Of a stretch of DNA of 64,000 nt, positions 1,324-61,885 are shown one piece after another (the stretch's first letter is position 1; every line of letters begins with the position of its first letter). Made by a program: the position numbers and the translations under genes. The notes under the pieces are model-generated. The model had not been told where the DNA came from, did not search any database, and saw nothing but the letters and a program-made list of their open reading frames with translations. Source of the DNA: Antedon mediterranea. Taxonomy: Eukaryota; Echinodermata; Crinoidea; Comatulida; Antedonidae. Location: the NCBI RefSeq assembly GCF_964355755.1, contig NC_092674.1, positions 1,121,001-1,185,000 on the forward strand, read 5' to 3'.

Positions 1324-1355
<32 letters not shown>

Positions 1356-9860: not shown

Positions 9861-10150
9861 CTTGCGATGTCAGTCTTGGTGTTTGATTCGAGGAAATAAA
9901 TATATTCTTTTTATTGCGTTTAAAAAATGGTGACAAATCTATCTGTGCGACACTAAAAGTCATTCAACCGCGATGAACAAAGAATTAAAATTGTGTAACA
10001 ATAATATTTTAATAGAATGACAACAAAGAATCCCCAAGATTGTATTGTAACATGTGATCTTCGCAACCAATAGGTACCAGTCCATATAACGTACGGTGTC
10101 ATTCTTTGCTTTCACCATAGATAAGTAACAATACCTAAAACCATAGAGAT

Positions 10151-12329: not shown

Positions 12330-12425
12330 TACTACAGTACTAATGGTTTAGTCAAGACTACTTCATGAAATAAATGGTACTACAGTACTAATGGTTTAGT
12401 CAAGACTACTTCATGAAATATTTGT
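12330..12425. repeat. Two-copy tandem duplication, 48-bp period
   Basis: TACTACAGTACTAATGG...CATGAAATA occurs twice head to tail. The right copy has one partial unit near 48630-48662, so this is a recent left-copy duplication. Confidence 0.8.
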
Positions 12426-13347
12426 TGTTTAGGCATAAGTGAGTAACATTATTAAACTACAAATTGAGATATTCAAAGTTTGATTTTATTCATATTTTTC
12501 ATTTCATTTTTCATGTTTTAGGGAACAAAAACAAATCCTTGACTATAAAATAAATTTTGATTCAAACAGATTCAAGATTTTGACTTATTTCCTTTCTTTT
12601 TCTTTTGTCTTTTTGATTTTAATTCTTTTGGAAGAACTTTAACTTTATCAATGTTGACTTCTACATAATATTGTGATTTTGAATGAGTGTCCGACAAAGA
12701 ACCCTGCTCAAGTGTTCTTTTCACTCCTACATCTTTCGGTTCTTGTGTATCAACATTATCTTCAGTTTTAAGTTTTTTTTTCTCTGGTTCCTCTACATCT
12801 TTTAAATCTTCCGTCGATTTCTTTGTATTTGTAGAGTTATCTTGTTGTTCTCTGGCAATGTTTCTTGGATGACTTCTCTTAAGATTTTCTAAATTAACCT
12901 TGTTTTCTTGAAGCCATGGTAAATTTAAACAGGTGTTTTCTTTATAATCAATTCCACCAGACCGTCAAACACACTGTCTTCTCCATTTGTTTTCTGAAAT
13001 GTTAATGAACATTCATAATATAGATGTTGAATAGCATAACATAAAATATACTGAGGCATGGACAAAAAGGAAAAATATTTTTTTTTATTACTGTATTATG
13101 GGTAAATGGCATATATGTTATCATTCTATTAAGGTATCCCCTGGAAAATGTGTATACACTACTGTTATTAAGAACTACACACCTTAAATCCGATAGCCAT
13201 AACAGTTTTAAGATTGAGCAACGGTGCAAGAACCTCACTCAGTTTGAAAAGACACAAAGCTGGCGTTTCTCGTGTTGCACTTAATGCGTACAAATGGTTC
13301 GTCATGTGACTCGGCTTGGTTGAACGACAGAGCACTGCGCAACATAG

Positions 13348-13720
13348 GAGCGGGGTTGGTGAAATCTGTCCATAATAGGTTACTTTTCTGTCCATAATAG
13401 GTTACTTTCTGTCCATAATAGGGACTAGAGGGCGCTGTTGTTTGTCCATAATAGGTGACTTTCATAATTGGCTGTCCAAAATAGGTGACTTTTTGTCCAC
13501 AATAGGCGAGTTTATTGGAGTAGTGCGCCATCCATTGTGTTGTCCATAATAGGTGATTTTGTTGGCGTACTCGTACGTAGTTTATTTCGCGAGTAGAAGT
13601 AATACTAATTTGCTTTCTGTTCAGACTTCGAGGCTACCTAGGAGGCCTAATTAGTATAAATATTTAAGTCTTTCTAGCCTAGGCCTAGCTAGGCTAGGGC
13701 CTAGTCCTGTTAGTTAGGCT
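13348..13720 (+). repeat. Left terminal inverted repeat of element A
   Basis: It contains at least seven copies of GTCCATAATAGG or close variants (GTCCAAAATAGG, GTCCACAATAGG) spaced about 20-40 bp apart. They are followed by a unique stretch that includes GCGCCATCCATTGTG and GCGAGTAGAAGTAAT. The reverse complement is found at 35423-35266 and then 19427-about 19150. Repeated subterminal motifs are typical transposase-binding arrays, but binding here is inference. Confidence 0.88.
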
Positions 13721-15693: not shown

Positions 15694-17399
15694 CGTATCC
15701 GGATATTCACCCCCTGGACATTTACCCCCCGGACAACTACCCCCCGGACAACCACCACCTGGACCACTACCCCCTTAGGACAACTACCCCTTTAGGACAA
15801 CTACCCCCCGGACAAATACCCCCCGGACAACTACCCCCTTAGGACAACAACCCCCTTAGGACAACTACCCCCTGGACAACTACCCCCCGGACAATTACCC
15901 CCTAGGAACAATTACCCCTCGGACAATTACCACCCGGACAATTACCCCCCGGACAATTACCACCCAGAAAACTATCCCTTTAGAACACCCTAACCACCCA
16001 GACCATTCAACAACCTGACTCTGCAACAGTGTATAATAGGAATTAATAACTATATTTTAATTCGTTACTTTGACGAATTACTATTCATTATTGTAAGCAA
16101 AAGTAAAAGATTGAACATAAATATAGCCTGGTATAAACTGAAGATCGTCACACATGATCATAGGATAGTCGAACGTATTATATAGTACTCCCTGTATTTA
16201 CTGTAAAGACTGGGTTCGCTAATAATAATAATAATTTTTGCGTCAGGACAATGCTTCGATAACCACTGGTCTTAAAAGAATTAATATTTGTCTAAAATTT
16301 GTCATATATGTATTTTTGTACACTTGAAGAATAATATCACTTTTGATATTTGACCTCAATGTTCACTCACCGAATAAACGTCGATCTTTAAATAAATTCC
16401 CCTCAAATAAACGGTGACCATGTCACTCCCATGAAACATCATATGGAATAATCGGCGTCTATTTCCATTAGATTATACCCCCTCCCACTGAATAAACAAC
16501 TTTCTTCCAATAAATGTCCACCTAAAAACCACCTAAACAATAAACAGCCCAGGCCGTTTTTTCAATAAATACGGTACTTTAAATCTAGCACATCTAGGGT
16601 CTAGCGTGCTGTTAAACAGAATAATCGGTTAAAAACGGGTGTTTCGAAACTAGAGACCCGAGACCAGAGACCCGAGACCATATACGAAAAGGGAGACCTA
16701 AATATACGAAAAGGGAGACCCACGTACGAAAAGGGAGACCCCACTATACGAAAAGGGAGACCCCACTATACGAAAAGGGAGACCCTAATATACGAAAAGG
16801 GAGACCTAAATATACGAAAAGGGAGACCCAATTATACGAAAGGGAGACCCAAATATACAAAATGGGAGGCCCAAATATACGAAAAGGGAGACCCACTATA
16901 AGAAAAGGGAGACCCACTATAAGAAAAGGGAGACCCCACTATACGAAAAGAGAGACCACACTATACGAAAAGGGAGACCCTAATATACGAAAAGGGAGAC
17001 CCAAATATAGGTCTCCCTTTTCGTATTGGGTCTCGTTTCAGGTCTCTGGTCTCGGATCTCTAGTTTCGAAACACCCGTTAAAAACAGATGATTTCATTTT
17101 TACAGAAACCGGTCCTATATATTTGTCTACTTTTGGATGGGGGGGGGGGGTAGTTGACCGGGGGGTAGTTGACCGGGGGGTAGTTACCCGGGGGGTAGTT
17201 ATCCTAAGGGGTAGTTGTCCTAAGGGGGTGGTTGTCCGGGGGGTAGTTGTCCGGGGGTTGTTATCCTAAGGGGGTAGTTGTCCTAAGGGGGTAGTTGTCC
17301 GGGGGGTAGTTGTCCGGGGGGTAGTTGTCCTAAGGGGGTAGTTGTCCGGGTGGTAAACATCCGGGGGGTAACTGTCTAGGGGGTAGGTGTCCTAGAACC
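15694..17399. mobile_element. Foldback element D with short tandem-repeat arms
   Basis: It is flanked by the 8-bp direct repeat ATCAATTT (15686-15693 and 17400-17407). The left arm (about 15705-16000) is about 18 degenerate units of roughly 13-17 bp built on GGACAACTACCCCC. The right arm (about 17135-17395) is the inverted form, GGGGGTAGTTGTCC. The central domain is AT-rich and contains element C. Arms made of ~15-bp tandem repeats with 8-bp duplications resemble the TU foldback elements described in sea urchins; that likeness is from memory. No coding sequence is seen. Confidence 0.75.
16637..17076. mobile_element. Element C: 440-bp inverted-repeat element with internal 20-bp tandem array
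   Basis: A 9-bp target duplication GTTAAAAAC flanks it at 16628-16636 and 17077-17085. Termini begin GGGTGTTTCGAAACTAGAGA, followed by CCGAGACC repeats, and are inverted at the right end. Between them is an array of about 15 units of TATACGAAAAGGGAGACCC (19-21 bp). One inverted unit occurs next to the right end. It is nested inside element D. A small frame across the array (16862-17269) is a repeat artefact. Confidence 0.88.
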
Positions 17400-19149: not shown

Positions 19150-19427
19150 GGTAGCCTAACTAAAACAGGACTAGCCTAGGCTAGGCCTATAGGCCCTAGA
19201 GGCTAGAGAGACTTAAATAATTATACTAATTAGGCCTCCTACTAGTACCCTACTAGCTAGGCCTAGGTAGCCTCGAAGTCTGAAGAGAAAGCAAATTAGT
19301 ATTAACTAATAATAGTTATTACTTCTACTCGCGAAATAAACTACGTACGTACGAGTACGCCAACAAAATCACCTATTATGGACAACACAATGGATGGCGC
19401 ACTACTCCAATAAACTCGCCTATTGTG
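19150..19427 (-). repeat. Inner part of the right terminal inverted repeat of element A
   Basis: This is the reverse complement of about 13500-13720, including CCTCGAAGTCTGAA and ACTTCTACTCGCGAAATAAA. It ends at CCTATTGTG, the duplicated target of element B. The outer part of the same repeat resumes at 35266-35423. Confidence 0.85.
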
Positions 19428-19575
19428 GCTTGTGTCAAGCTAGCCAACAATAAGCCAGCCAACAATAAGCCAGCCCACTTTTATTTTTTCCAGCCAACAA
19501 TAACTATGAAACGCCGTTTGTGCATTCTTTACATTTTCATTGTTACTTATGGCTTTTATGGTATTAGGAATTAAA

Positions 19576-22500
19576 TATTTGTGAGAAAAACGGCGGATTG
19601 TTCCTGGGATTCACTTGGTGGGATTATACTAGGGTACCCCCTTAGTCGTCCAGTATAAGTTAGAGTGGGACCACTGGTCCCGTTTACTCAGCCCTCATCT
19701 TTAAAATTTGAGTGTAACTCAATTACGATTTTTAAAATATAGTTAAATTTGAAACTGTATTTGTGAGAAAATGGCGGATTGTTCCTGGGAGTCACTTGGT
19801 GGGATTATACTAGGGTACCCCCTTAGTCGTCCAGTATAAGTTAGAGTGCGACCACTGGTCCCGTTTACTCAGCCCTCATCTTTAAAATTTGAGTGTCACT
19901 CAATTACAATTTTTAAAATATAGTTAAATTTGAAACTGTATTGGTGAGAAAATGGCGGATTGTTCCTGGGAGTCACTTGGTGGGATTATACTAGGGTACC
20001 TTCTTAGTCGTACAGTATAAGTTAGAGTGGGACCACTGGTACCGTTTACTCAGCCCTCATCTTTTAAATTTGAGTGTAACTCATTTACGATTTAAAAAAT
20101 ATAGTGAAATTTGATACTGTATTTGTGAGAAAATGGCGGATTGTTCCTGGGAGTCACTTGGTGGGATTATACTAGGGTACCTCCTTAGTTGTCCAGTATA
20201 AGTTAGAGTGGGACCACTTGTCCCGTTTACTCAGCCCTCATCTTTAAAATTTGAGTGTAACTCATTTACGATTTTTAAAATATAGTGAAATTTGATACTG
20301 TGTTTGTGAAAAAACGGCGGATTGTTCCTTAGAGTCACTTGGTGGGATTATACTAGGGTACCCCCTTAGTCGTCCAGTAGAAGTTAGAGTGGGACCACTG
20401 GTCCCGTTTACTCAGCCCTCATCTTTTAAATATGAGTGTAACTCATTTACGATTTTTAAAATATAGTGAAATTTGATACTGTATTTGTGAGAAAACGGCG
20501 GATTGTTCCTGAGAGTCACTTGGTGGGATTATACTAGAGTGCCTCCTTAGTCGTCCAGTATAAGTTAGAGTGGGACCACTGGTCCCGTTTACTCAGCCCT
20601 CATCTTTTAAATTTGAGTGTAACTCATTTACGATTTTAAAAATATAGTGAAATTAGATACTGTATTTGTGAGAAAACGGCGGATTGTTCCTGGGAGTCAC
20701 ATGGTGGGATTATACTAAGGTACGTCCTTAGTCGTCCAGTATAAGTTAGAGTGCGACCACTGGTTCCGTTTACTCAGCCCTCATCTTTTAAATTTGAGTG
20801 TAACTCAATTACGATAACAAATTTTAAAATATAGTGAAAATTGATACTGTATTTGTGAGAAAATGGCGGATTGTTCCTGGGAGTCACTTGGTGGGATTAT
20901 ACTAGGGTACCTCCTTAGTTGTCCAGTAGAAGTTAGAGTGGGACCACTGGTCCCGTTTACTCAGCCCTCATCTTTAACGTTTGAGTGTAACTCAATTACG
21001 ATTAATATTTTAAAATATAGTGAAATTTGATATTGTATTTGTGAGAAAATGGCGGATTGTTCCCGGGAGTCACTTGGTGGGATTATACTAGGGTACCTCC
21101 TTAGTTTGTCCAGTTTAAGTTAGAGTGGGACCACTGGTCCCGTTTACTCAGTCCTTATCTTTAAAATTAGAGTGTAACTCAATTACGATTAATATTTTAA
21201 AATATAGTGAAATTTGATACAGTACTGTATTTGTGAAAAAATGGCGGATTGGTCCTGGCAGTCACTTGGTAGGATTATACTAGGGTACCTCCTTAGTCGT
21301 CCAGTATAAGTTAGAGTGGGACTACTGGTTCCGTTTACTCAGCCCTCATCTTTAAAATGTGAGTGTAACTCATTTACGATTTTTAAAATATAGTGAAATT
21401 TGAAACTGTATTTGTGAGAAAACGGCGGATTGTTCCCGAGAGTCACTTGGTGGGATTATACTAGGGTACCTCCTTAGTCGTACAGTATAAGTTAGAGTGG
21501 GACCACTGGTACCGTTTACTCAGCCCTCATCTTTTAAATTTGAGTGTAACTCATTTACGATTTAAAAAATATAGTGAAATTTGATACTGTATTTGTGAGA
21601 AAATGGCGGATTGTTCCTGGGAGTCACTTGGTGGGATTATACTAGGGTACCTCCTTAGTTGTCCAGTATAAGTTAGAGTGGGACCACTTGTCCCGTTTAC
21701 TCAGCCCTCATCTTTAAAATTTGAGTGTAACTCATTTACGATTTTTAAAATATAGTGAAATTTGATACTGTGTTTGTAAGAAAACGGCGGATTGTTCCTT
21801 AGAGTCACTTGGTGGGATTATACTAGGGCACCCCCTTAGTCGTCCAGTATAAGTTAGAGTGGGACCACTGGTCCCGTTTACTCAGCCCTCATCTTTTAAA
21901 TATGAGTGTAACTCATTTACGATTTTTAAAATATAGTGAAATTTGATACTGTATTTGTGAGAAAACGGCGGATTGTTCCTGAGAGTCACTTGGTGGGATT
22001 ATACTAGAGTGCCTCCTTAGTCGTCCAGTATAAGTTAGAGTGGGACCACTGGTCCCGTTTAATCAGCCCTCATCTTTTAAATTTGAGTGTAACTCATTTA
22101 CGATTTTAAAAATATAGTGAAATTAGATACTGTATTTGTGAGAAAACGGCGGATTGTTCCTGGGAGTCACATGGTGGGATTATACTAAGGTACGTCCTTA
22201 GTCGTCCAGTATAAGTTAGAGTGCGACCACTGGTTCCGTTTACTCAGCCCTCATCTTTTAAATTTGAGTGTAACTCAATTACGATAACAAATTTTAAAAT
22301 ATAGTGAAAATTGATACTGTATTTGTGAGAAAATGGCGGATTGTTCCTGGGAGTCACTTGGTGGGATTATACTAGGGTACCTCCTTAGTTGTCCAGTAGA
22401 AGTTAGAGTGGGACCACTGGTCCCGTTTACTCAGCCCTCATCTTTAACGTTTGAGTGTAACTCAATTACGATTAATATTTTAAAATATAGTGAAATTTGA

Positions 22501-25500
22501 TATTGTATTTGTGAGAAAATGGCGGATTGTTCCCGGGAGTCACTTGGTGGGATTATACTAGGGTACCTCCTTAGTTTGTCCAGTTTAAGTTAGAGTGGGA
22601 CCACTGGTCCCGTTTACTCAGCCCTTATCTTTAAAATTAGAGTGTAACTCAATTACGATTAATATTTTAAAATATAGTGAAATTTGATACTGTATTTGTG
22701 AAAAAATGGCGGATTGGTCCTGGCAGTCACTTGGTAGGATTATACTAGGGTACCTCCTTAGTCGTCCAGTATAAGTTAGAGTGGGACTACTGGTTCCGTT
22801 TACTCAGCCCTCATCTTTAAAATGTGAGTGTAACTCATTTACGATTTTTAAAATATAGTGAAATTTGAAACTGTATTTGTGAGAAAACGGCGGATTGTTC
22901 CCGAGAGTCACTTGGTGGGATTATACTAGGGTACCTCCTTAGTCGTACAGTATAAGTTAGAGTGGGACCACTGGTACCGTTTAGTCAGCCCTTATCTTTA
23001 AAATTTGAGTGTAACTCATTTACGATTTAGAAAATATAGTGAAATTTTATACTGTATTTGTGAAAAAATGGCGGATTGTTCCTGGGAGTCACTTAGTGGG
23101 ATTATACTAGGGTACCTCCTTAGTTGTCCAGTATAAGTTAGAGTGGGATCACTGGTCCCGTTTACTCAGCCCTCATCTTTAAAATTTGAGTGTAACTCAT
23201 TTACGATTTTAAAAATATAGTGAAATTTGATACTGTATTTGTGCGAAAACGGCGGATTGTTCCTGAGAGTCATTTGGTGGGATTATACTAGGGTACCCCC
23301 TTAGTCGTCCAGTTTAAGTTAGAGTGGGACCACTGGTCCCGTTTACTCAGCCCTCATCTTTTACATTTGAGTGTAACTCATTTACGATTTTTAAAATATA
23401 GTGAAATTTGATACTGTATTTGTGAGAAAACGGCGGATTGTTCCTGGGAGTCACATGGTGGGATTATACTAAGGTACGTCCTTAGTCGTCCAGTATAAGT
23501 TAGAGTGCGACCACTGGTTCCGTTTACTCAGCCCTCATCTTTTAAATTTGAGTGTAACTCAATTACGATAAAAAAAATTTAAAATATAGTGAAAATTGAT
23601 ACTGTATTTGTGAGAAAATGGCGGATTGTTCCTGGGAGTCACTTGGTGAGATTATACTGGGGTACCTCCTTAGTTGTCCAGTTTAAGTTAGAGTGGGACC
23701 ACTGGTCCCGTTTACTCAGCCCTCATCTTTAATGTTTGAGTGTAACTCAATTACGATTAATATTTTGAAATATAGTGAAATTTGATACTATATTTGTGAG
23801 AAAATGGCAGATTGTTCCCGGGAGTCACTTGGTGGGATTATACTAGAGTGCCTCCTTAGTCGTCCAGTATAAGTTAGAGTGGGACCACTGGTCCCGTTTA
23901 ATCAGCCCTCATCTTTTAAATTTGAGTGTAACTCATTTACGATTTTAAAAATATAGTGAAATTAGATACTGTATTTGTGAGAAAACGGCGGATTGTTCCT
24001 GGGAGTCACATGGTGGGATTATACTAAGGTACGTCCTTAGTCGTCCAGTATAAGTTAGAGTGCGACCACTGGTTCCGTTTACTCAGCCCTCATCTTTTAA
24101 ATTTGAGTGTAACTCAATTACGATAACAAATTTTAAAATATAGTGAAAATTGATACTGTATTTGTGAGAAAATGGCGGATTGTTCCTGGGAGTCACTTGG
24201 TGGGATTATACTAGGGTACCTCCTTAGTTGTCCAGTAGAAGTTAGAGTGGGACCACTGGTCCCGTTTACTCAGCCCTCATCTTTAACGTTTGAGTGTAAC
24301 TCAATTACGATTAATATTTTAAAATATAGTGAAATTTGATATTGTATTTGTGAGAAAATGGCGGATTGTTCCCGGGAGTCACTTGGTGGGATTATACTAG
24401 GGTACCTCCTTAGTTTGTCCAGTTTAAGTTAGAGTGGGACCACTGGTCCCGTTTACTCAGCCCTTATCTTTAAAATTAGAGTGTAACTCAATTACGATTA
24501 ATATTTTAAAATATAGTGAAATTTGATACTGTATTTGTGAAAAAATGGCGGATTGGTCCTGGCAGTCACTTGGTAGGATTATACTAGGGTACCTCCTTAG
24601 TCGTCCAGTATAAGTTAGAGTGGGACTACTGGTTCCGTTTACTCAGCCCTCATCTTTAAAATGTGAGTGTAACTCATTTACGATTTTTAAAATATAGTGA
24701 AATTTGAAACTGTATTTGTGAGAAAACGGCGGATTGTTCCCGAGAGTCACTTGGTGGGATTATACTAGGGTACCTCCTTAGTCGTACAGTATAAGTTAGA
24801 GTGGGACCACTGGTACCGTTTAGTCAGCCCTTATCTTTAAAATTTGAGTGTAACTCATTTACGATTTAAAAAATATAGTGAAATTTTATACTGTATTTGT
24901 GAAAAAATGGCGGATTGTTCCTGGGAGTCACTTAGTGGGATTATACTAGGGTACCTCCTTAGTTGTCCAGTATAAGTTAGAGTGGGATCACTGGTCCCGT
25001 TTACTCAGCCCTCATCTTTAAAATTTGAGTGTAACTCATTTACGATTTTAAAAATATAGTGAAATTTGATACTGTATTTGTGCGAAAACGGCGGATTGTT
25101 CCTGAGAGTCATTTGGTGGGATTATACTAGGGTACCCCCTTAGTCGTCCAGTTTAAGTTAGAGTGGGACCACTGGTCCCGTTTACTCAGCCCTCATCTTT
25201 TACATTTGAGTGTAACTCATTTACGATTTTTAAAATATAGTGAAATTTGATACTGTATTTGTGAGAAAACGGCGGATTGTTCCTGGGAGTCACATGGTGG
25301 GATTATACTAAGGTACGTCCTTAGTCGTCCAGTATAAGTTAGAGTGCGACCACTGGTTCCGTTTACTCAGCCCTCATCTTTTAAATTTGAGTGTAACTCA
25401 ATTACGATAAAAAAAATTTAAAATATAGTGAAAATTGATACTGTATTTGTGAGAAAATGGCGGATTGTTCCTGGGAGTCACTTGGTGAGATTATACTGGG

Positions 25501-28500
25501 GTACCTCCTTAGTTGTCCAGTTTAAGTTAGAGTGGGACCACTGGTCCCGTTTACTCAGCCCTCATCTTTAATGTTTGAGTGTAACTCAATTACGATTAAT
25601 ATTTTAAAATATAGTGAAATTTGATACTATATTTGTGAGAAAATGGCAGATTGTTCCCGGGAGTCACTTGGTGGGATTATACTAGGGTACCTTCTTAGTT
25701 GTCCAGTTTAAGTTAGAGTGGGACCACTGGTCCCGTTTACTCAGCCCTCATCTTTTAAATTTGAGTGTAACTCATTTACGATTTTTAAAATATAGTGAAA
25801 TTTGATACTGTATTTGTGAGAAAATGGCGGATTGTTCCTGAAAGTCACTTGGTGGGATTATACTAGGGTACCTCCTTAGTTGTCCAGTTTAAGCTAGAGT
25901 GGGACCACTGGTCCCGTTTACTCAGCCCTTATCTTTAAAATTTCAGTGTAACTCAATTACGATTAATATTTTAAAATATAGTGAAATTTGATACTGTATT
26001 TCTGAGAAAACGGCGGATTGTTCCTGAGAGTCACTTAGTGGGATTATACTAGGGTACCCCCTTAGTCGTCCAGTATAAGTTAGAGTGGGACCACTGGTCC
26101 CGTTTACTCAGCCCTATTCTTTAAAATTTGAGTGTAACTCATTTACGATTTTTAAAATATAGTGAAATTTGAAACTGTATTTGTGAGAAAATGGCGGATT
26201 GTTCCTGGGAGTCACTTGGTGGGATTATACTAGGGTACCCCCTTAGTCGTCCAGTATAAGTTAGAGTGGGACCACTGGTCCCGTTTACTCAGCCCTCATC
26301 TTTTAAATTTGAGTGTAACTCATTTACGATTTTTAAAATATAGTGAAATTTGATACTGTATTTGTAAGAAAACGGCGGATTGTTCCTGAGAGTCACTTGG
26401 TGGGATTATACTAGGGTACCCCCTTAGTCGTCCAGTATAAGTTAGAGTGGGACCACTGGTCCCGTTTACTCAGCCCTCATCTTTTACATTTGAGTGTAAC
26501 TCATTTACGATTTTTAAAATATAGTGAAATTTGATACTGTATTTGTGAGAAAACGGCGGATTGTTCCTGGGAGTCACATGGTGGGATTATACTAAGGTAC
26601 GTCCTTAGTCGTACGCGTCCAGTATAAGTTAGAGTGCGACCACTGGTTCCGTTTACTCAGCCCTCATCTTTTAAATTTGAGTGTAACTCAATTACGATAA
26701 AAAAAATTTAAAATATAGTGAAAATTGATACTGTATTTGTGAGAAATTGGCGGATTGTTCCTGGGAGTCACTTGGTGAGATTATACTGGGGTACCTCCTT
26801 AGTTGTCCAGTTTAAGTTAGAGTGGGACCACTGGTCCCGTTTACTCAGCCCTCATCTTTAATGTTTGAGTGTAACTCAATTACGATTAATATTTTAAAAT
26901 ATAGTGAATTTTGATACTGTATTTGTGAGAAAATGGCGGATTGTTCCCGGGAGTCACTTGGTGGGATTATACTAGGGTACCTTCTTAGTTGTCCAGTTTA
27001 AGTTAGAGTGGGACCACTGGTCCCGTTTACTCAGCCCTCATCTTTTAAATTTGAGTGTAACTCATTTACGATTTTTAAAATATAGTGAAATTTGATACTG
27101 TATTTGTGAGAAAATGGCGGATTGTTCCTGAGAGTCACTTGGTGGGATTATACTAGGGTACCTCCTTAGTTGTCCAGTTTAAGCTAGAGTGGGACCACTG
27201 GTCCCGTTTACTCAGCCCTTATCTTTAAAATTTCAGTGTAACTCAATTACGATTAATATTTTAAAATATAGTGAAATTTGATACTGTATTTCTGAGAAAA
27301 CGGCGGATTGTTCCTGAGAGTCACTTAGTGGGATTATACTAGGGTACCCCCTTAGTCGTCCAGTATAAGTTAGAGTGGGACCACTGGTCCCGTTTACTCA
27401 GCCCTATTCTTTAAAATTTGAGTGTAACTCATTTACGATTTTTAAAATATAGTGAAATTTGAAACTGTATTTGTGAGAAAATGGCGGATTGTTCCTGGGA
27501 GTCACTTGGTGGGATTATACTAGGGTACCCCCTTAGTCGTCCAGTATAAGTTAGAGTGGGACCACTGGTCCCGTTTACTCAGCCCTCATCTTTTAAATTT
27601 TAGTGTAACTCATTTACGATTTTAAAAATATAGTGAAATTAGATACTGTATTTGTGAGAAAACGGCGGATTGTTCCTGGGAGTCACATGGTGGGATTATA
27701 CTAAGGTACGTCCTTAGTCGTCCAGTATAAGTTAGAGTGCGACCATTGGTTCCGTTTACTCAGCCCTCATCTTTTAAATTTGAGTGTAACTCAATTACGA
27801 TAAAAAATTTTAAAATATAGTGAAAATTGAGACTGTATTTGTGAGAAAATGGCGAATTGTTCCCGGGAGTCACTTGGTGGGATTATACTGGGGTACCTCC
27901 TTAGTTGTCCAGTTTAAGTTAGAGTGGGACCACTGGTCCCGTTTACTCAGCCCTCATCTTTAACGTTTGAGTGTAACTCAATTACGATTAATATTTTAAA
28001 ATATAGTGAAATTTGATACTGTATTTGTGAGAAAATGGCGGATTGTTCCTTGGAGTCACTTGGTGGCATTATACTAGGGTACCTCCTTAGTTGTCCAGTT
28101 TAAGTTAGAGTGGGACCACTGGTCCCGTTTACTCAGCCCTCATCTTTTAAATTTGAGTGTAACTCATTTACGATTTTTAAAATATAGTGAAATTTGATAC
28201 TGTATTTGTGAGAAAATGGCGGAGTTTTCTTGGGATTCACTTGGTGGGATTATACTAGGGTACCTCCTTAGTTGTCCAGTTTAAGTTAGAGTGGGACCAC
28301 TGGTCCCGTTTACTCAGCCCTTATCTTTAAAATTTGAGTGTAACTCAATTACGATTAATAATTTAAAATATAGTGAAATTTTATACTGTATTTCTGAGAA
28401 AACGGCGGATTGTTCCTGAGAGTCACTTGGTGGGATTATACTAGGGTACCCCCTTAGTCGTCCAGTATAAGTTAGAGTGGGACCACTGGTCCCGTTACTC

Positions 28501-30390
28501 AGCCCTCATCTTTAAAATTTGAGTGTAACTCATTTACGATTAAAAAAATATAGTGAAATTTGATACTGTATTTGTGAAAAAAAGGCGGATTTTTCCTGAG
28601 AGTCACTTGGTTGGATTATACTAGGGTACCTCCTTAGTTGTCCAATATAAGTTAGAGTGGGACCACTGGTCCCGTTTACTCAGCCCTCATCTTTAAAATT
28701 TGAGTGTAACTCATTTACGATTTTTTAAATATAGTGAAATTTGATACTGTATTTGTGAGAGAACGGCGGATTGTTCCTGAGAGTCATTTGGTGGGATTAT
28801 ACTAGGGTACCCCCTTAGTTTTTCAGTATAAGTTAGAGTGGGACCACTGGTGCCGTTTACTCAGCCCTCATCTTTTAAATTTGAGTGTAACTCATTTACG
28901 ATTTTTAAAATATAGTGAAATTTGATACTGTATTTGTGAAAAAACGGCGGATTGTTCCTGAGAGTCACTTGGTGGGATTATACTAGGGTGCCTCCTTAGT
29001 CATCCAGTATAAGGTAGAGTGGAACCACTGGTCCCGTTTACTCAGCCCTCATCTTTTAAATTTGAGTGTAACTCATTTACGATTTTAAAAATATAGTGAA
29101 ATTAGATACTGTATTTGTGAGAAAACAGCGGATTGTTCCTGGGAGTCACATGGAGGGATTATACTAAGGTACGTCCTTAGTCGTCCAGTATAAGTTAGAG
29201 TGCGACCACTCGTTCCGTTTACTCAGCCCTCATCTTTTAAATTTGAGTGTAACTCAATTACGACAAAAAAATTTAAAATATAGTGAAAATTTATACTGTA
29301 TTTGTGAGAAAATGGCGGATAGTTCCCGGGGGTCACTTGGTAGGATTATACTGGGGTACCTCATTAGTTGTCCAGTTTAAGTTAGAGTGGGACCATTGGT
29401 TCCGTTTACTCATCCCTCATCTTTAACGTTTGAGTGTAACTCAATTACGATTAATATTTTAAAATATAGTGAAATTTGATACTGTATTTGTGAGAAAATG
29501 GCGGATTGTTCCCAGGAGTCACTTGGTGGGATTATACTAGGGTACTTCCTTAGTAGTCCAGTTTAAGTTAGAGTGGGACCACTTTTCCCGTTTACTCAGC
29601 CCTCATCTTTTAAATTTGAGTGTAACTCATTTACGATTTTTAAAATATAGTGAAATTTGATACTGTATTTGTGAGAAAATGGCGGATTGTTCCTGAGAGT
29701 CACTTGGTGGGATTATACTAGGGTACCTCCTTAGTTGTCCAGTTTAAGTTAGAGTTGGACCACTGGTCCCGTTTACTCAGCCCTTATCTTTAAAATTTGA
29801 ATTTAACTCAATTAAGATTAATATTTTAAAATATAGTGAAATTTGATACTGTATTTGTGAGAAAATGGCGGATTGTTCCTGGGAGTCACTTGGTGGGATT
29901 ATACTAGGGTACCCCCTTAGTTGTCCAGTATAAGTTAGAGTGGGACCACTGGTCCCGTTTACTCAGCCCTCATCTTTAAAATTTGATTGTAACTCATTTA
30001 CGATTTTTAAAATATAGAGAAATTTGAAACTGTATTTTTGAGAAAACGGCGGATTGTTCCTGAGAGTCACTTGGTGGGATTATACTAGGGTACCTTCTTA
30101 GTTGTCCAGTAGAAGTTAGAGTGGGACCACTGGTCCCGTTTACTCAGCCCTTATCTTTAACGTTTGTGTGTAACTCAATTACGATTAATATTTTAAAATA
30201 TAGTGAAATTTGATACTGTATTTGTGAGAAAATGGCGGATTGTTCCTGGGAGTCACTTTGTGGGATTATACTAGGTTACCCCCTTAGTCGTCCAGTATAA
30301 GTTAGAGTGGGACCACTGGTCCGGTTTACTCAGCCCTTATCTTTAAAAATTTGAGTGTAACTCATTTACGATTTTTAAAATATAGTCAAA
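19576..30390 (+). repeat. 181-bp satellite array, forward block (~59 monomers)
   Basis: Monomers repeat every 181 bp, for example GGCGGATTGTTCC at about 19592, 19773, 19954, 20135, 20316 and 20497. Variants near 187 bp carry an ATTAATATTTT insertion. Each monomer has GTGAGAAAATGGCGGATTG, GGTGGGATTATACTAGGG, the dyad GGGACCACTGGTCCC and AGTGTAACTCA. Higher-order repeats are visible: blocks recur about 1,470 bp (21061 to 22531), 1,839 bp (22531 to 24370) and 1,286 bp (about 25195 to 26481) apart, that is about 8, 10 and 7 monomers. Confidence 0.95.
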
Positions 30391-33300
30391 TTTCACTATA
30401 TTTTAAAAATCGTAAATGAGTTACACTCAAATTTTAAAGATGAGGACTGAGTAAACCGGACCAGTGGTCCCACTCTAACTTATACTGGACGACTAAGGGG
30501 ATACCCTAGTATAATCCCACCAAGTGACTCCCAGGAATAATCCGCCATTTTCTCACAAATACAGTATCAAATTTCACTATATTTTAAAATATTAATCGTA
30601 ATTGAGTTACACTCAAACGTTAAAGATGAGGGCTGAGTAAACGGGACCAGTGGTCCCACTCTAACTTAAACTGGACAACTAAGGAGGTACCCTAGTATAA
30701 TCCCACCAAGTGACTCCCAGGAACAATCCGCCATTTTCTCACAAATACAGTATCAATTTTCACTATATTTTAAAAATTTTATCGTAATTGAGTTACACTC
30801 AAATTTAAAAGATGAGGGCTGAGTAAACGGGACCAGTGGTCGCACTCTAACTTATACTGGACGACTAAAGACGTACCTTAGTATAACCCCACCATGTAAC
30901 TCCCAGGAACAATCCGCCGTTTTCTCACAAATACAGTATCAAATATCACTATATTTTAAAAATCGTAAATGAGTTACACTCAAATTTTAAAGATGAGGGC
31001 TGAGTAAACGGGACCAGTGGTCCCACTCTAACTTAAACCTGACAACTAAGGAGGTACCCTAGTATAATCCCACCAAGTGACTCTCAGGAACAATCCGCCG
31101 TTTTCTCACAAATACAGTTTCAAATTTTACTATATTTTAAAAATCGTAAATGAGTTACACTCAAATGTTAAAGATGAGGGCTGAGTAAACGGGACCAGTG
31201 GTCTCACTCTAACTTATACTGGACAACTAAGGAGGTACCCTAGTATAATCCCACCAAGTGACTCCCAGGAACAATCCGCCATTTTCTCACAAATACAGTA
31301 TCAAATTTGACTATTTTTTAAATCGTAAATGAGTTACACTCAAATTTTAAAGATGAGGGCTGAGTAAACGGTACCAGTGGTCCCACTCTAATTTATTCTG
31401 GACGACTAAGGAGGTACCTTAGTATAATCCCACCAAGTAACTCCCAGGAACAATACGCCATTTTCTCACAAATACAGTTTCAAATTTAACTATATTTTAA
31501 AAATTGTAATTGAGTTACACTCAAATTTTAAAGATGAGGGCTGAGTAAACGGGACCAGTAGTCCCACTCTAACTTACACAGTATGACTAAAGAGGTACCC
31601 TAGTATAATCCCACCAAGTGACTCTCAGGAACAATCCACCGTTTTCTCACAAATACAGTATCAAATTTCACTATATTTTAAAAATCGTAAATGAGTTACA
31701 CTCAAATTTTAAAGATGAGGGCTGAGTAAACGGGACCAGTGGTCCCACTCTAACTTAAACCTGACAACTAAGGAGGTACCCTAGTATAATCCCACCAAGT
31801 GACTCTCAGGAACAATTCGCCGTTTTCTCACAAATACAGTTTCAAATTTTACTATATTTTAAAAATCGTAAATGAGTTACACTCAAATGTTAAAGATGAG
31901 GGCTGAGTAAACGGGACCAGTGGTCTCACTCTAACTTATACTGGACAACTAAGGAGGTACCCTAGTATAATCCCACCAAGTGACTCCCAGGAACAATCCG
32001 CCATTTTCTCACAAATACAGTATCAAATTTCACTATTTTTTAAATCGTAAATGAGTTACACTCAAATTTTAAAGATGAGGGCTGAGTAAACGGTACCAGT
32101 GGTCCCACTCTAATTTATTCTGGACGACTAAGGAGGTACCTTAGTATAATCCCACCAAGTAACTCCCAGGAACAATACGCCATTTTCTCACAAATACAGT
32201 TTCAAATTTAACTATATTTTAAAAATTGTAATTGAGTTACACTCAAATTTTAAAGATGAGGGCTGAGTAAACGGGACCAGTAGTCCCACTCTAACTTACA
32301 CAGTATGACTAAAGAGGTACCCTAGTATAATCCCACCAAGTGACTCTCAGGAACAATCCACCGTTTTCTCACAAATACAGTATCAAATTTCACTATATTT
32401 TAAAAATCGTAAATGAGTTACACTCAAAATTTAAAGATGAGGGCTGAGTAAACGGGACCAGTGGTCCCACTCTAACTTATACTGGACGACTAAGGGTGTA
32501 CCCTAGTATAATCCCACTAAGTGAATCTCAGGAACAATCCGCCGTTTTCTCACAAATACAGTTTCAAATTTCACTATATTTTAAAAATCGTAAATGCGTT
32601 ACACTCAAATTTTAAAGATGAGGGCTGAGTAAACGGGACAAGTGGTCCCACTCTAACTTATACTGGACGACTAAGGGGGTACCCTAGTATAATCCCACCA
32701 AGTGACTCCCACGAACAATCCGCCATTTTCTCACAAATACAGTATAAAATTTCACTATATTTTAAAAATCGTAAATGAGTTACACTCAAATTTCAAAGAT
32801 GAGGGCTGAGTAAACGGAACCAGTGGTCCCACTCTAACTTATACTGGACTACTAAGGGGGTACCCTAGTATAATCCCACCAAGTGGCTCCCAGGAACAAT
32901 CCGCCATTTTGTCACAAATACAATATCAATTTTCACTATATTTTAAAATATTAATCGTAATTGAGTTACACTCAAATTTTAAAGATAAGGGCTGAGTAAA
33001 CGGGACCAGTTGTCCCACTCTAACTTAAACTGGACAACTAAGGAGGTACCCTAGTATAATCCCACCAAGTGACTCTCGGGAACAATCAGCCATTTTCTCA
33101 CAAATACAGTATCAAATTTCACTATATTTTAAAATATTAATCGTAATTGAGTTACACTCAAACGTTAAAGATGAGGCCTGAGTAAACGGGACCAGTGGTC
33201 CCACTCTAACTTCTACTGGACAACTAAGGAGGTACCCTAGTATAATCCCACCAAGTGACTCTCAGGAACAATCCGCCGTTTTCTCAAAAATACAGTTTCA

Positions 33301-35117
33301 AATTTTACTATATTTTAAAAATCGTAAATGAGTTACACTCAAATTTCAAAGATGAGGGCTGAGTAAACGGAACCAGTGGTCCCACTCTAACTTATACTGG
33401 ACGACTAAGGGGGTACCCTAGTATAATCCCACCAAGTGGCTCCCAGAAACAATCCGCCATTTTATCACAAATACAGTATCAATTTTCACTATATTTTAAA
33501 ATATTAATCGTAATTGAGTTACACTCAAATTTTAAAGATAAGGGCTGAGTAAACGGGACCAGTGGTCCCACTCTAACTTAAACTGGACAACTAAGGAGGT
33601 ACCCTAGTATAATCCCACCAAGTGACTCCCGGGAACAATCCGCCATTTTCTCACAAATACAGTATCAAATTTCACTATATTTTAAAATATTAATCGTAAT
33701 TGAGTTACACTCAAACGTTAAAGATGAGGCCTGAGTAAACGGGACCAGTGGTCCCACTCTAACTTCTACTGGACAACTAAGGAGGTACCCTAGTATAATC
33801 CCACCAAGTGACTCCCAGGAACAATCCGCCATTTTCTCACAAACACAGTATCAATTTTCACTATATTTAAAATGTTTTACCGTAATTGAGTTACACTCAA
33901 ATTTAAAAGATGAGGGCTGAGTAAACGGAACCAGTGGTCGCACTCTAACTTATACTGGACGACTAAGGACGTACCTTAGTATAATCCCACCATGTGATTC
34001 CCAGGAACAATCCGCCGTTTTCTCACAAATACAGTATCAAATTTCACTATATTTTAAAAATCGTAAATGAGTTCCACTCAAATTTAAAAGATTAGGGCTG
34101 AGTAAACGGGACCAGTGGTCCCACTCTAACTTATACTGGACGACTAAGGGGGTACCCTAGTATAATCCCACCAAGTGACTCTCCGGAACAATCCACCGTT
34201 TTCTCACAAATACAGTATCAAATTTCACTATATTTTAAAAATCGTAAATGAGTTACACTCAAATTTTAAAGATGAGGGCTGAGTAAACGGGACCAGTGGT
34301 CCCACTCTAACTTATACTGGACAACTAAGGAGGTACCCTAGTATAATCCCACCAAGTGACTCCCAGGAACAATCCGCCATTTTCTCACAAATACAGTATC
34401 AAATTTCAATATATTTTTTAAATCCTAAATGAGTTACACTCAAATTTAAAAGATGAGGGCTGAGTAAACGGGACCAGTGGTCCCACTCTAACTTATACTG
34501 GACGACTAAGGGAGTACCTAGTATTATCCCACCAAGTGACTCTAAGGAACAATCCGCCGTTTTCTCACAAATACAGTATCAAATTTCACTATATTTTAAA
34601 AATCGTAAATGAGTTACACTCAAATTTTAAAGATGAGGGCTGAGTAAACGGGACCAGTGGTCCCACTCTAACTTATACTGGACGACTAAGGATGTACCCT
34701 AGTATAATCCCACCAAGTGACTCCCAGGAACAATCCGCCATTTTCTCACCAATAGAGTTTCAAATTTAACTATATTTTAAAAATTGTAATTGAGTTACAC
34801 TCAAATTTTAAAGATGAGGGCTGAGTAAACGGGACCAGTGGTCGCACTCTAACTTATACTGGACGACTAAGGGGGTACCCTAGTATAATCCCACCAAGTG
34901 ACTCCCAGGAACAATCCGCCATTTTCTCACAAATACAGTTTCAAATTTAACTATATTTTGAAAATTGTAATTGAGTTACACTCAAATTTTAAAGATGAGG
35001 GCTGAGTAAACGGGACCATTGGTCCCACTCTAACTTATACTGGACGACTAAGGGGGTACCCTAGTATAATCCCACCAAGTGAATCCCAGGAACAATCCGC
35101 CGTTTTTCTCACAAATA
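30391..35117 (-). repeat. 181-bp satellite array, inverted block (~26 monomers)
   Basis: The same monomer continues in the opposite orientation from the turning point at 30390/30391 to the right terminal arm. Larger repeats exist here too; for example, the interval from about 30950 recurs from about 31660. The block is less than half as long as the forward block, so the arms have changed copy number independently. Confidence 0.95.
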
Positions 35118-35265
35118 TTTAATTCCTAATACCATAAAAGCCATAAGTAACAATGAAAATGTAAAGAATGCACAAACGGCGTTTCATAGTTGTTGTTGGC
35201 TGGAAAAAATAAAAGTGGGCTGGCTTATTGTTGGCTGGCTTATTGTTGGCTAGCTTGACACAAGC

Positions 35266-35423
35266 CCTATTGTGGACAAAAAGTCGCCTATTTTGGACAG
35301 CCAATTATGAAAGTTACCTATTATGGACAAACAACAGCGCCCTCTAGTCCCTATTATGGACAGAAAGTAACCTATTATGGACAGAAAAGTAACCTATTAT
35401 GGACAGATTTCACCAACCCTATT
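35266..35423 (-). repeat. Outer part of the right terminal inverted repeat of element A
   Basis: This is the reverse complement of 13348 to about 13505, with the same CCTATTATGGAC repeats. It ends at ...GGACAGATTTCACCAACCCTATT, next to the duplicated GCAACATAG. Confidence 0.88.
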
Positions 35424-35642
35424 GCAACATAGTAATCCTCTTTCAAGTGCTCTTGTGACCTCATTGATACCAATAAAAACTTGTGATCTGTAAAAATAGG
35501 TACACATCAATCACATACAGTATATTACAGTTATGAATGTTGTCAATTATAAGTTCATTTGAATGTATTTAATTGAATATCTTAATACAACACTTGTAAA
35601 ACTGCCATTTTCTACCTCTAGGAATGATTGTAGAAGCACTAA

Positions 35643-36198: not shown

Positions 36199-36469
36199 AT
36201 GATGCTAATTATGATTGTATTGTATTTATATGCCTAGTGTGTAAACATTATTGACATAATTTCATTAAACATCCACATACAGTACAACTCTTCTTAACAA
36301 TTTTTTCAATCTTCTATCAACTAAAAGTCGTAGTTAGTCATGCCTCGGGTCACATTCTATGGTCACCGTACAGGTAGACTACTACATCAGTACTTCTATG
36401 AATGGATGACTAGTCTGTGACAATAACGCTAGTTGGTCATACACAGTACCGTTTTGATTTTACGATCCG
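36199..36469. other. Junction spacer between the two duplicated units
   Basis: These 271 bp match neither the right end (51109 onward) nor the left end (1-430) of the duplicated units. No gene or repeat was recognised. Confidence 0.55.
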
Positions 36470-37187
36470 CTCTTTTTGCGTCCCATATACGGTATAGAAC
36501 GCCATCTGTGCATTTATAAATATTGGCATAAATTTGAATGAGTTTTTAAACAATTATTTGGCCTGAATAAAAGAAGCAATGACTAAATTTTACATTTCAT
36601 TGTTTTTATTTATTTGGCAAGAATATGTCATTTTAACTAAACAAGCATTTTTAAATATTAATATTGGTGTATGTAACAATAACACTGTGGCTGGAAATAT
36701 GTCATAATGTAGGCCTATACAATATTTATTAAACCAATTTTCACAGTAGATAATAATTTACAACAATGAATTAAAAAAGTAAAACAAGAAAACACTGACA
36801 ATAAAAACAGAAACCGTAATATAAAGCCCAATCACATAATGAATGACGTCACAGGAATGATTGCGTGTGATTTTGATTACATAAAGTACCCCCACCGTAC
36901 AATAACTTCCTTTTTTATACATACTTGTAAGTTACAAAATTCTATAAAATGCATGATTAAATGCAATATCTATCAGAATAAATTGTGAATAATATATAAC
37001 TTTAATTATTTATAACAAAGAAACATAATACAACAGCAATGTTCATTCAAAACACCAGATAAAACTTCAATTTGGAATAAATAGGACCGCTATATATAAT
37101 AATAATATTGCGCGTAGCAGCAGACGGCAGAACAATGCGACAAATGCACGCGAGTATACTGCGTGTTTTGGACGAAATGATGATAAA

Positions 37188-40100
37188 CTAATAACGAAAA
37201 TTTGGTCGCAGGTCAAGATAATCTGTGTCGTAAGGAGTGTAAGATGGCGGTGGAGGGTTATTTTCCCACAGACCTGGGTGCTGGGGGTGCTGCTGCTGTT
37301 GCTGTTGTTGTTGTCGTTGGTGTCGTTTTGGTCGTCGTTTTTGTTTTCTTTGTTGTTGTTGTTGTTGTTGTTGTTGCGGTGGTAGTTTCGTTACATAGAA
37401 AGCGGTATCGTCCTGGAGGTGAACTTGATGCTGAGGAGGAGGCATCGCTTTCAGATATGGTGACTCTGTTGCAGCTGCGGCTGCGCCGATACTTGATTCG
37501 TACGTCGGTGGTGGTTTCAACATGTCACCTAATGCTTCGTAGATATGATTGTGATCTCCACCGTTTAATTGTGCAATGCCCGTCTCGTATTGATTTGGAG
37601 ATACAGTGTTACAAACGACTGGTTTTGTTCTGAAAGAACAGAGACATAAAGAAAATAATTATTATATAAAATAGTGACGATTGTTTTAATAGCGTGTGCG
37701 ACGCATGGTAGGAAGGATTTGGGAGCAAACGTCACAACGCGTACGTACATGGTTTGTTGTTTGTACGTAAGCGTCGTGACGTTTGCTCCCAAACCCTTCC
37801 CATCATGCATTGTGTAAGCTATTTGCGATAAACCTTATAGGAAAACGTATTTAATGGTGAATGATCATAATTTGAAAAGTAATATTTAAATACATGGACA
37901 TGAAAGCTAGGTTTCCACTCCAGGAGGAAACGTAAGAACGACGCCCCAACGCAAAAGAATTGACTAATCTCAAGTGACAGTACGAATAATTCATCGCTTG
38001 ATTGGTCTAAGCTAAGCGTTGCGACTTAAGCTCTGTCTACACTATCACATAGCATGTGACAACAAATGTGATGTGCCCATAATTTTATATGGACGTGATG
38101 ATGTCATATCACTACCATATTTAAGCATATCACCATATTATTATTGGGGTAGGCCTACATCACATTTTTTTGTCACATAAAGTTTGATAGTGTAGACAGA
38201 GCTTTACGTCCTTCCGTCGCGTTGTAGTGGGAACCAAGTTTTTATCTAACCAGTGAAATTTCACACTTCCCTGGTATAGTACGTAAAATGGCGACGGTAA
38301 TACAAAGTGACGTCACATCTTACCTTTCCTTTCCACAACAACAGAAAAGAACAACAATAAACACCATTAATAAAACTAATACAGATCCACCAGCGGCAAT
38401 TGCGATGATAAGAAAATCAATTCCTAAACAGAAGAAAAAAATGACCAGTTTGTTCTTATTTAATTTTTGTTACTAGTAGGTCTTGTCCGGCACTATTGTG
38501 TAATTAACCGATAGGCTTTCTAGAATAAAAAGTTTATTTAAAAAGTAAACTTTTCTATCGTCATCATTTTACAAATACGGCCTGTGATTATTCTTCGTTG
38601 ATTGATCAGTTATAATATGAAATAGGAGGTGTTTTCGTTTATGTGATTTACATTGTATGTTTTATTTACTTACCGCCAGGTCCTTCCGTTGGTTCCAATT
38701 CTGTTAATAAAATAATATTCTATTATCATTATATCACGTTTTTAGTTGGTTAAATTTGCTAATAATGTTTTAAGACGATCTATGTTGTTTCATATTTAAG
38801 GATTTAAATGTAAAAAAAATGTGATTAAAGGCGTGATTAAGAAAAGCAGGATCCTTTTTATTTCCGATATTCATTCCTCTTTGAAAAAAAACTTACCTTT
38901 TTGGCGGTTGGTCGATGCTGCCGCAGCAGAATAGAATGTAGTCATAGCATCAGTCGTAGGACCAATCGTAGTAGGAACTATAAAAAGCAACAGATTGCGA
39001 GAGTGTAATTATTATTACATAAATAGTTGATAACTATGTCAGATTATCTTCAAATATCGGAATTAATTGATGATGCACATTTTCACTTGACGGAACAGTA
39101 ACAGTAATCAATCCCGTTAAATATTAATCTAAGCTTTAGTTCACACAGTAAGCGCATCGCAAGTAATTTGACCAATCACGACGTGACATGGATTAAGTGT
39201 CGCTTGTGATTGGTCAACTCACTTGCGTTGCGTGTACGCGTCCTTGTGTTGCGTCGGGGTAAACAAAGATTACGTGACTACTGAGTTAGTAAGTCACAGT
39301 TACTGTTAGTTGTTTTTCATATTTCATCTTTGTATGAACTACCGGTATATATATTGGTGTTTTTATATCTTTTATGTCTGTATTAAAAGGTTACACGCAA
39401 TCTGATAATTGGCCACAAGTTGTAACGTTGCTATATTTGGAGTATATAAAAGTATATAACCAAACAAATAGAAAATACATTTAATAATTAATTACCAACT
39501 ATCGGTTGAGAAGATTCATCAAATATGTCGATAGCAGAAACAGAGTAGTTGAGCTTCAAATAGCCTTCGTGATCGCCAGTCTCCTTGTAAAGCGCTTCAA
39601 CAATCCCCTTTTCCTTTCCTTCGACCAAACGTGACCCGGCTAACACTATGAAATCCTAAAATACAAATATTCTAATGAAATCAAAACAGAACACTGGAAC
39701 TACTTTATACTGATACTGTGATAATGTGATACATCAAAACACAAACGTTTGTACGCATGCGCGAATTAAAGAAGAAGAATTATTAATTTGTACACTCATG
39801 AATTTTGCTGAACAAAATATTTTTTTTTTAAAGAAGATGCGCATCAAACTTGTTTGAGTTAAAGGTCAGTTAAAGCATATCCGATTATTTTTTCGATAAA
39901 AGTTGTGTTAGACCAAATATAAATATGTATATTCAGAACAATTTGACACAAAAGCAAATATTTATGACAATTTTGACCCCGATTTTGGGCATGTTTGCCC
40001 CGGATAGCAAATTTTGCACACATCTCATGTTGTTACTTGGGGTAAAATTATTCTATAAGAATTGAGATACTCTTTCCTAAATTAAATGCATACAAATCTG

Positions 40101-61880: not shown

Positions 61881-61885
61881 AAAGT

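Follow-up and report, generated by a model that had tools for sequence, protein, structure and literature searches.

Structure of the locus

The window, a stretch of 64,000 nucleotides from Antedon mediterranea (assembly GCF_964355755.1, contig NC_092674.1, positions 1,121,001 to 1,185,000 of the forward strand), contains a foldback-type element, termed element B, that is itself inserted in a second foldback element, termed element C (Table 1). The exact duplication CCTATTGTG abuts both ends of element B, and its only other copy in the window is on the minus strand at 13498, inside the uninterrupted insertion site. When the two flanks of element B were joined they aligned with this site over 260 bp at 97.3%. 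The joined flanks of element C (916 bp) likewise aligned at 96.0% with the paralogue in a duplicated gene region, the window containing a tandem duplication (435-13347 against 36468-50230). A genome-wide search with the end of element C scored 40 places of 114 candidates, in which the closest inverted pairs were about 3 kb apart.

Table 1. Features of elements B and C, with positions in the window
Feature	Position	Strand	Description
Element B	19428-35265		Foldback-type element with satellite interior
Left target duplication	19419-19427	+	9-bp copy, CCTATTGTG
Left terminal arm	19428-19575	+	148 bp, begins GCTTGTGTCAAGC, contains 2.6 copies of a 15-bp repeat
Left satellite block	19576-30390	+	59 monomers of about 181 bp
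Turn-around	30386-30393	.	Monomer direction switches
Right satellite block	30391-35117	-	26 monomers of about 181 bp, opposite direction
Right terminal arm	35118-35265	-	147 of 148 bases identical to the left arm
Right target duplication	35266-35274	+	9-bp copy
Uninterrupted target of element B	13353-13607	-	Other arm of the host element C, with one copy of CCTATTGTG
Element C	13348-35423	.	Host foldback element into which B inserted; inverted ends; exact 9-bp duplication GCAACATAG at 13339-13347 and 35424-35432
Uninterrupted site of element C	49579-49587	+	Single GCAACATAG in the duplicated gene region

The first-pass annotation had described a transposon with matched inverted ends, an exact 9-bp duplication and an interior of about 85 copies of a 181-bp monomer in two opposed blocks, and both this description and its coordinates are confirmed. 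Tandem Repeats Finder gave 59.0 copies (19576-30393) and 26.0 copies (30386-35117) of a 181-bp unit, and a motif parse gave 85 monomer starts, 59 plus and 26 minus, with a single change of direction. The interior had also been called palindromic, but the two blocks are unequal and, beyond the outer monomers, are not mirror images, so the term describes orientation only. Mirror symmetry of the two blocks by inter-arm conversion is not supported for the whole array, as in most elements only some outer monomers agree.

A family of satellite-bearing elements

The 18-bp end of element B occurs 89 times in the genome at up to 2 mismatches (67 exact), against 0 for the reversed control, and is therefore not a chance feature. 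The arms form 27 inverted pairs lying 7.5-33 kb apart, of which 18 have exact 9-bp duplications, 3 have exact 8-bp duplications, 4 have 1-2 mismatches in 9, 1 has none and 1 could not be judged; 15 exact ends lie outside these pairs. Eight of the 27 pairs were read whole, the remainder being read at the ends, and 8 of 8 contain exactly two opposed blocks with one switch and hold 40 to 90 monomers. A further candidate of about 79 kb (C6:18981631-19060520; chromosomes are denoted C1, C4 and so on) has 8 of 9 duplication bases matching, although its interior was not read.

Of 56 hits to a monomer word, 49 lie inside two-armed elements, 6 lie beside one arm and 1, a degenerate array (C6:17617600-17618500), is without known arms. 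The sequence is a satellite in having long head-to-tail arrays of related monomers, but it is not found mainly in free-standing arrays. Older forms with few, diverged monomers sit inside longer inverted ends; these forms (termed the P form) have an outer array of about 17-bp repeats, as judged by eye. The arm and the monomer share no similarity beyond 7 bp, providing no support for the monomer being an expanded piece of the arm, as has been suggested for Tetris.

A second, unrelated family carries 97-bp and 193-bp satellites, and 10 of 10 pairs tested have exact 7-bp duplications. The 31.5-kb pair of B-type arms on C7, whose right arm leads into non-B sequence, proved to have a second satellite element nested in the arm.

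Monomer order in copies on different chromosomes

Monomers within an element differ by about 7%. As megablast between tandem arrays returned one long match per pair, colinearity was counted monomer by monomer. The copies on C4 and C7 show 9 mismatches in 10,926 aligned bases, plus a 178-bp and a 1-bp gap, and 56 of 57 compared monomers have a best match at the same index. In contrast, 12 flanks of 1.5 kb from six elements share only a single 26-bp match. The C7 and C11 copies share the same odd turn-around sequence, and the C11 copy differs mainly by duplications of 10 and 11 monomers. Further lineages share end arrays at 97.9-99.8% over 1.46-1.65 kb across chromosomes, two comparisons having gaps of about one monomer.

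Order is nevertheless absent or weak in several elements. C1:25011974, C5:19156498 and C10:7723784 show none, whereas the window copy and C10:24966565 show order only in the outer monomers. All monomers in C5:19156498, and 71% of those in the window copy, have their nearest relative in the same element.

Search for a mobilising gene

The genome holds 36 matches to the MULE domain, several in long open frames, and 35 matches to a P-type transposase domain, including three identical-score 794-aa frames. None of these falls inside any of the 27 arm pairs or the 79-kb candidate. Four MULE and two P-type stretches of 4.3-5.5 kb contain no B-like end, although the near-identical copies compared match to the edge of the stretch, so that their element ends were not reached; two 22-bp matches of the monomer in these stretches were at chance level (E about 0.09) and were ignored. 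The exact 13-bp end gave 72 places (reversed control 5), of which only two (C7:30341544 and C8:17504353) were additional to those found with the 18-bp end, both unpaired and not read. Three single arms that lead into other DNA were followed for 8 kb each, revealing no second arm by BLAST and no transposase that we recognised in the open frames, without a family search of these frames. Within these limits, no mobilising gene was found.

Origin and spread of the arrays

We consider that element B belongs to a recently active family of non-autonomous, foldback-type DNA transposons with 148-bp ends and 8-9-bp target duplications, whose interior is almost entirely a 181-bp satellite in two opposed blocks (probability about 0.86). 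For one lineage read whole, an array has been carried intact between chromosomes, although array lengths rest on one assembly. Comparison of copies shows that arrays also change by duplication or loss of multi-monomer segments and by deletion at the turn-around. We infer that the elements are moved in trans by a transposase encoded elsewhere, that the arrays grow by unequal exchange and that the family descends from an older foldback, the P form, that held only a few monomers.

The first-pass annotation had proposed that a satellite packaged between transposon ends offers a way for arrays to jump and seed new loci. Its interpretation is supported, since the monomer is not found mainly in arrays without arms and 21 of 27 arm pairs carry exact 8- or 9-bp duplications. 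However, the seeding of free-standing arrays was not seen, with only the one armless, degenerate array being found.

The transposase is most likely of the MULE (Mutator/FB) kind, given the 9-bp duplications and foldback form, but a P/Galileo-type or other transposase remains a real possibility, if the less likely one. The P-type domain matches are compatible with such a source, and the second satellite family makes 7-bp duplications, a length that appears to be that of Galileo. On the other hand, family B makes 9-bp, sometimes 8-bp, duplications, as in Tm1 Mutator/Foldback elements (45 of 53 with 8-10 bp, mostly 9; PMC3169594), and the P-type stretches, which hold no B-like end but did not reach the element ends, do not decide the matter.

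It is unlikely that the satellite moved in the past as a small element with few repeats and that each long array then grew in place after insertion. Short forms do exist, array length varies between copies, multi-monomer duplications are seen and most monomers of C5:19156498 and of the window copy are closest to others in the same element. In-place growth explains differences such as those of the C11 copy, but it does not explain the agreement between the C4 and C7 copies, in which an array of about 11 kb moved as such, and this reading is contradicted for at least one lineage. Spread by ectopic recombination, gene conversion or re-insertion of circular satellite DNA, with the arms as hitchhiking borders, is still less likely. 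Segmental duplications of 7-11 monomers show that recombination acts inside the arrays, and one array lacks known arms, but exact 8-9-bp duplications abut the arms in 21 of 27 pairs, the flanks tested are unrelated, the uninterrupted site lacks both arms and array, and whole two-block arrays including the turn-around are shared. Ordinary segmental duplication of large chromosome pieces, although a tandem duplication is present in the window itself, is highly unlikely in view of the unrelated flanks of the six elements tested and the separate duplications of individual copies.

Comparison with known elements

The closest known element is the Tetris foldback transposon of Drosophila virilis and D. 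americana (Dias et al. 2014, PMC4079207), so that a foldback element with nucleosome-sized repeats, of which the first-pass annotation knew no example on this scale, was already known. The resemblance claimed here is structural only. Tetris is non-autonomous, has an outer unique domain followed by 220-bp tandem repeats and shows 8-9-bp duplications in its 3 complete copies; its repeats also occur in long arrays (up to 66 copies), some seen by fibre-FISH flanked by two Tetris ends, and its mobilising transposase has not been found. However, Tetris ends reach 1,735 bp with few repeats and separate inner and middle domains, 39 contigs hold only its repeats, and its authors suggest that larger arrays may have disrupted transposition. 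In the present family the array is nearly the whole element and an array of about 58 monomers has moved intact; we found no report, in the open-access literature searched, of intact carriage of arrays of this size by a foldback element.

The Tm1 family of root-knot nematodes (PMC3169594) also has foldback ends with tandem repeats, mostly 9-bp duplications and non-autonomous copies, but its repeats are about 14 bp and one kind of member encodes a MULE-like transposase. Galileo (P superfamily) of Drosophila (PMC3688188) has foldback-like long ends with internal tandem repeats that hold extra transposase binding sites, whereas arm and monomer are dissimilar here. Helitron/Helentron elements of Crassostrea gigas (PMC8268682) carry satellite monomers as cargo, but these are rolling-circle elements with short central arrays (HindIII/Cg170, about six monomers on average). 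Element B does not fit this group, for which insertion without target duplication and without long inverted ends would be expected. The miDNA4 and Xstir elements of Xenopus (reviewed in PMC12628747) are short inverted-repeat elements with internal tandem repeats of variable number, described as MITEs with a monomer or a variable array, in contrast to the two opposed blocks in elements of 7.5-33 kb observed here, for which carriage between chromosomes is shown.

It is conceivable, although doubtful on present evidence, that satellite-cargo foldback transposons are a distinct class of giant mobile element in this genome, where two unrelated families are shown, and that they may reach about 79 kb. 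In this view the satellite would be the working body of the element rather than a passenger, the arrays being carried between chromosomes as ordered, heritable blocks that grow by multi-monomer duplication and may act as many-fold transposase-binding or synapsis sites.

How satellite arrays reach new chromosomal sites is usually inferred from scattered monomers. Here monomer order acts as a barcode, whereby an array of about 11 kb can be followed from one chromosome to another almost base for base, bounded by transposon ends and separate target duplications. This makes the dispersal of satellites by DNA transposons directly testable, separates array movement from array growth, and argues against the idea that long repeat arrays stop foldback elements from moving.

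Element B and its insertion sites

Element B lies within the window, which corresponds to C5:1121001-1185000 of a 354-Mb genome in 18 contigs (contigs are designated C1, C2 and so on, followed by the position). Its 148-bp arms differ at one base and are flanked by an exact 9-bp duplication. Between the arms are 85 recognised monomers of about 181 bp, 59 in one direction and 26 in the other, with a single switch of direction. The two blocks are unequal and, beyond the outer monomers, the two sides do not match by index, so that the element, the satellite of which was described as palindromic in the first-pass annotation, is inverted in orientation rather than a perfect palindrome.

Element B sits in the right arm of another foldback element, designated C. 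The other arm of element C is uninterrupted, and the joined flanks of B align to it over 260 bp at 97.3%, with one copy of the 9-mer. Element C itself is flanked by an exact 9-bp duplication and its own uninterrupted site is present in the duplicated gene region, where 916 bp of joined flanks align at 96.0%. The window therefore shows two nested insertions, each with its empty site. Elsewhere in the genome the closest pairs of element C ends are about 3 kb apart. Other features of the window include a further foldback-like structure inside element C, two inverted repeat pairs that possibly represent a further long-ended element, and two open frames that by eye read like LINE-type reverse transcriptase.

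Coordinates of element B, its surroundings and related features elsewhere in the genome (positions without a contig name refer to the window; numbers with the prefix L denote stretches of the genome that were read)
Feature	Position	Details
Element B	19428-35265
Duplication flanking element B	19419 and 35266	CCTATTGTG
Switch of monomer direction in element B	about 30390
Element C, host foldback element	13348-35423	duplication GCAACATAG; CCTATTATGGACAG repeats in its ends
Other arm of element C, uninterrupted site of element B	13353-13607	inverted
Uninterrupted site of element C	49579-49587	in the duplicated gene region
Opposed arrays of a 15-bp repeat inside element C	15709-15978 and 17145-17394	ACCCCCCGGACAACT
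22-bp array between the opposed 15-bp arrays	16680-17009
Tandem duplication of a region of more than 12 kb	435-13347 against 36468-50230	73-97% identical piece by piece; supplied the empty site for element C
Inverted repeat pairs	59857-61112 and 61868-63354	661 bp (96.7%) and 646 bp (87.5%)
Open frames	10441-11481 (minus) and 42510-43805 (plus)	346 and 431 aa
Two B arms, possible 79-kb satellite transposon	C6:18981631-19060520	ends in L047 and L048; flanks TGTGTTGTT, TGTGTTTTT
Degenerate array with no arm known	C6:17617600-17618500
Second, unrelated satellite family	L097/L098 (C7:23919922-23935254) and C3:3627018-3639161, C3:38812299-38824696	opposed 97-bp blocks and a central 193-bp array
MULE-domain matches with identical scores	C2:1382286, C2:15352026, C3:9339044, C5:1627366, C11:21020252	651-aa open frames

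Distribution of the family across the genome

The 18-bp end of element B occurs 89 times in the genome at up to two mismatches (67 exact, 8 with one and 14 with two), whereas the reversed control gave none, although some of the mismatched hits are old P forms (older foldback copies with few monomers) or unrelated (for example L036). Pairing of ends by position, with the addition of one damaged left end, gave 27 inverted pairs 7.5 to 33.2 kb apart, all of which were tested for target duplications. Of these, 18 have exact 9-bp duplications and 3 have exact 8-bp duplications (C4:23422530, C7:23903809 and C10:24966565), the latter read by eye from the flanks because the automated test considered 9 bp only. 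A further 3 pairs have one mismatch in nine, 1 has two mismatches and 1 has no duplication (C3:32277395), while 1 could not be judged because the left tip is damaged (C4:17145035, scored automatically as one mismatch). Fifteen exact ends lie outside the 27 pairs. Two of these, located on C6 and 78.9 kb apart, have flanks that agree at 8 of 9 bases and may delimit a much larger element, but are not counted here. An arm variant with GCCGACAA in place of GCCAACAA defines a sub-family. The eight ends L042, L044, L045, L047, L048, L050, L052 and L053 that carry this variant are all outside the 27 pairs, though L060 and L066, which are in pairs, also show it. None of 72 exact 13-bp B ends lies on contig C2 (40.9 Mb), although the second family and the P form do occur there.

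To determine whether the monomer is ever found free of the arms, we searched the genome with short monomer words. A 32-base word occurs 715 times, and of the first 100 occurrences, all on C1 up to 38.68 Mb, 96 are in two-armed B elements, 3 are in old P-form elements and 1 is beside a single arm. A rarer 30-base word gave 56 hits, of which 49 are inside two-armed elements, 6 are beside a single arm (4 on C9 and 2 on C10) and 1, in a degenerate array on C6, has no arm known. These words find monomers near the consensus and hence old diverged arrays may be missed.

Conservation of monomer order between elements

We compared 463 monomers from 20 elements, most of which were sampled only at their ends. 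The mean difference is 7.1% within an element and 7.5% between elements. By our weighting the nearest relative lies in another element in about two thirds of cases, the exceptions being C5:19156498 (100% in the same element), the window copy (71%) and C10:7723784 (55%). For the first seven monomers of 35 ends, the nearest monomer in another element has the same index in 157.8 of 245 cases, against about one in seven by chance. The ends fall into lineages, comprising {C1:2165586, C7:1140462, C7:23903809, C4:23422530}, {C4:3991330, C7:1168087, C11:35179}, {C10:22818455, C4:3743353, C5:18405830, C7:22485505}, and one end each of C1:38667006 and C3:20650318. Within the lineages tested by alignment, 1.46-1.65 kb of end array agree at 97.9-99.8%, two comparisons having gaps of about one monomer. 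In contrast, C1:25011974, C5:19156498 and C10:7723784 show no such order, and the window copy, C10:24966565, C10:8074826 and C3:8279859 show it weakly, in the outer monomers. The left block of the window copy does, however, align over 3.9 kb with the right block of the C4 element at 96.2%.

Three members of the second lineage were read whole. When the C4 and C7 copies were compared across 35 left and 22 right monomers, 56 of 57 have a best match at the same index, and over the whole element there are 9 mismatches in 10,926 aligned bases, one 178-bp gap at the turn-around and one 1-bp gap. Their duplications differ (ACCACCACC and GCAAGTGTG), and among 12 flanks of six elements the only match is 26 bp. 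The C11 copy has a closely related order, enlarged by repeated segments of 10 monomers on the left and 11 on the right, and shares with C7 the same unusual turn-around sequence. Both blocks and the turn-around are therefore inherited together, and length then changes by multi-monomer steps. In the window copy, the near-identical relatives in the left block lie mostly 7, 8 or 10 monomers apart.

Older forms of the element

Older copies (L031-L035, L077, L081, L082 and L086-L089) have the B arm, or in the case of L082 and L089 part of it, with few diverged or partial monomers inside longer inverted ends, the outer parts of which by eye include arrays of about 17 bp. No open frame of 80 codons exists in L081 and only one, of 85 codons, is present in L082. 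We infer that B arose from such a foldback by loss of the outer ends and growth of the inner repeat. Sixteen P-form monomers differ from the B consensus by 8.7% on average, but positions 41-60 (GGTGGGATTATACTAGGGTA) show 0.00. It is possible that this block is a protein-binding site, although arm and monomer share nothing beyond 7 bp, which speaks against a copy of an end-binding site.

A second satellite-bearing family

The right arm of the C7:23903809 element is split by a nested 15,333-bp element of a second, unrelated family, with opposed 97-bp satellite blocks and a central array of about 193 bp. A search with its right end scored 40 of 49 candidates, revealing 26 right ends at 94% or more and 12 left ends, which form 12 pairs, 11 of them 12-23 kb apart and one 73 kb apart. 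Of these 12 pairs 10 were examined, and 10 of 10 have an exact 7-bp duplication. Two copies that were read whole agree with each other and with the nested copy in blocks of 96-99%. Carriage of satellites by foldback elements is thus not a single accident in this genome.

Potential mobilising enzymes

A transposase acting in trans is inferred. The 9-bp duplication and the foldback form point to the MULE kind; Tm1 elements show duplications of 8-10 bp, mostly 9, in 45 of 53 cases (PMC3169594). The genome holds 36 MULE-domain and 35 P-type-domain matches, several of them in long open frames. Five of the MULE-domain matches have identical scores and the two that were read are 99.5% identical over 5.4 kb, suggesting recent activity. 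However, none of the MULE-domain or P-type-domain matches falls inside the 27 arm pairs, only 8 of which were read whole, or inside the 79-kb candidate on C6. The stretches read around six of the matches hold no B-like end, but at least four of these stretches did not reach the element ends. A mobiliser of a kind other than MULE, although less favoured, therefore remains a possible alternative.

Relationship to known elements

The first-pass annotation noted foldback elements with short internal repeats, but knew of none with a nucleosome-sized satellite on this scale. This view of novelty is corrected by Tetris (PMC4079207), the closest precedent, which is a foldback element with 220-bp repeats and 8-9-bp duplications, some copies of which have long arrays between two ends as seen by fibre-FISH. 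Galileo (PMC3688188) shows how repeats in long ends can carry extra binding sites, oyster Helitrons carry short arrays (PMC8268682), and MITE models for array growth are listed in a 2025 review (PMC12628747). The authors of the Tetris study suggest that larger arrays may have disrupted transposition, whereas the present family shows an 11-kb two-block array that moved. Although no transposase partner was found and the analysis rests on one assembly, element B belongs to a real, well-bounded and recently active family of foldback transposons, which provides strong evidence that satellite arrays are moved as intact blocks.
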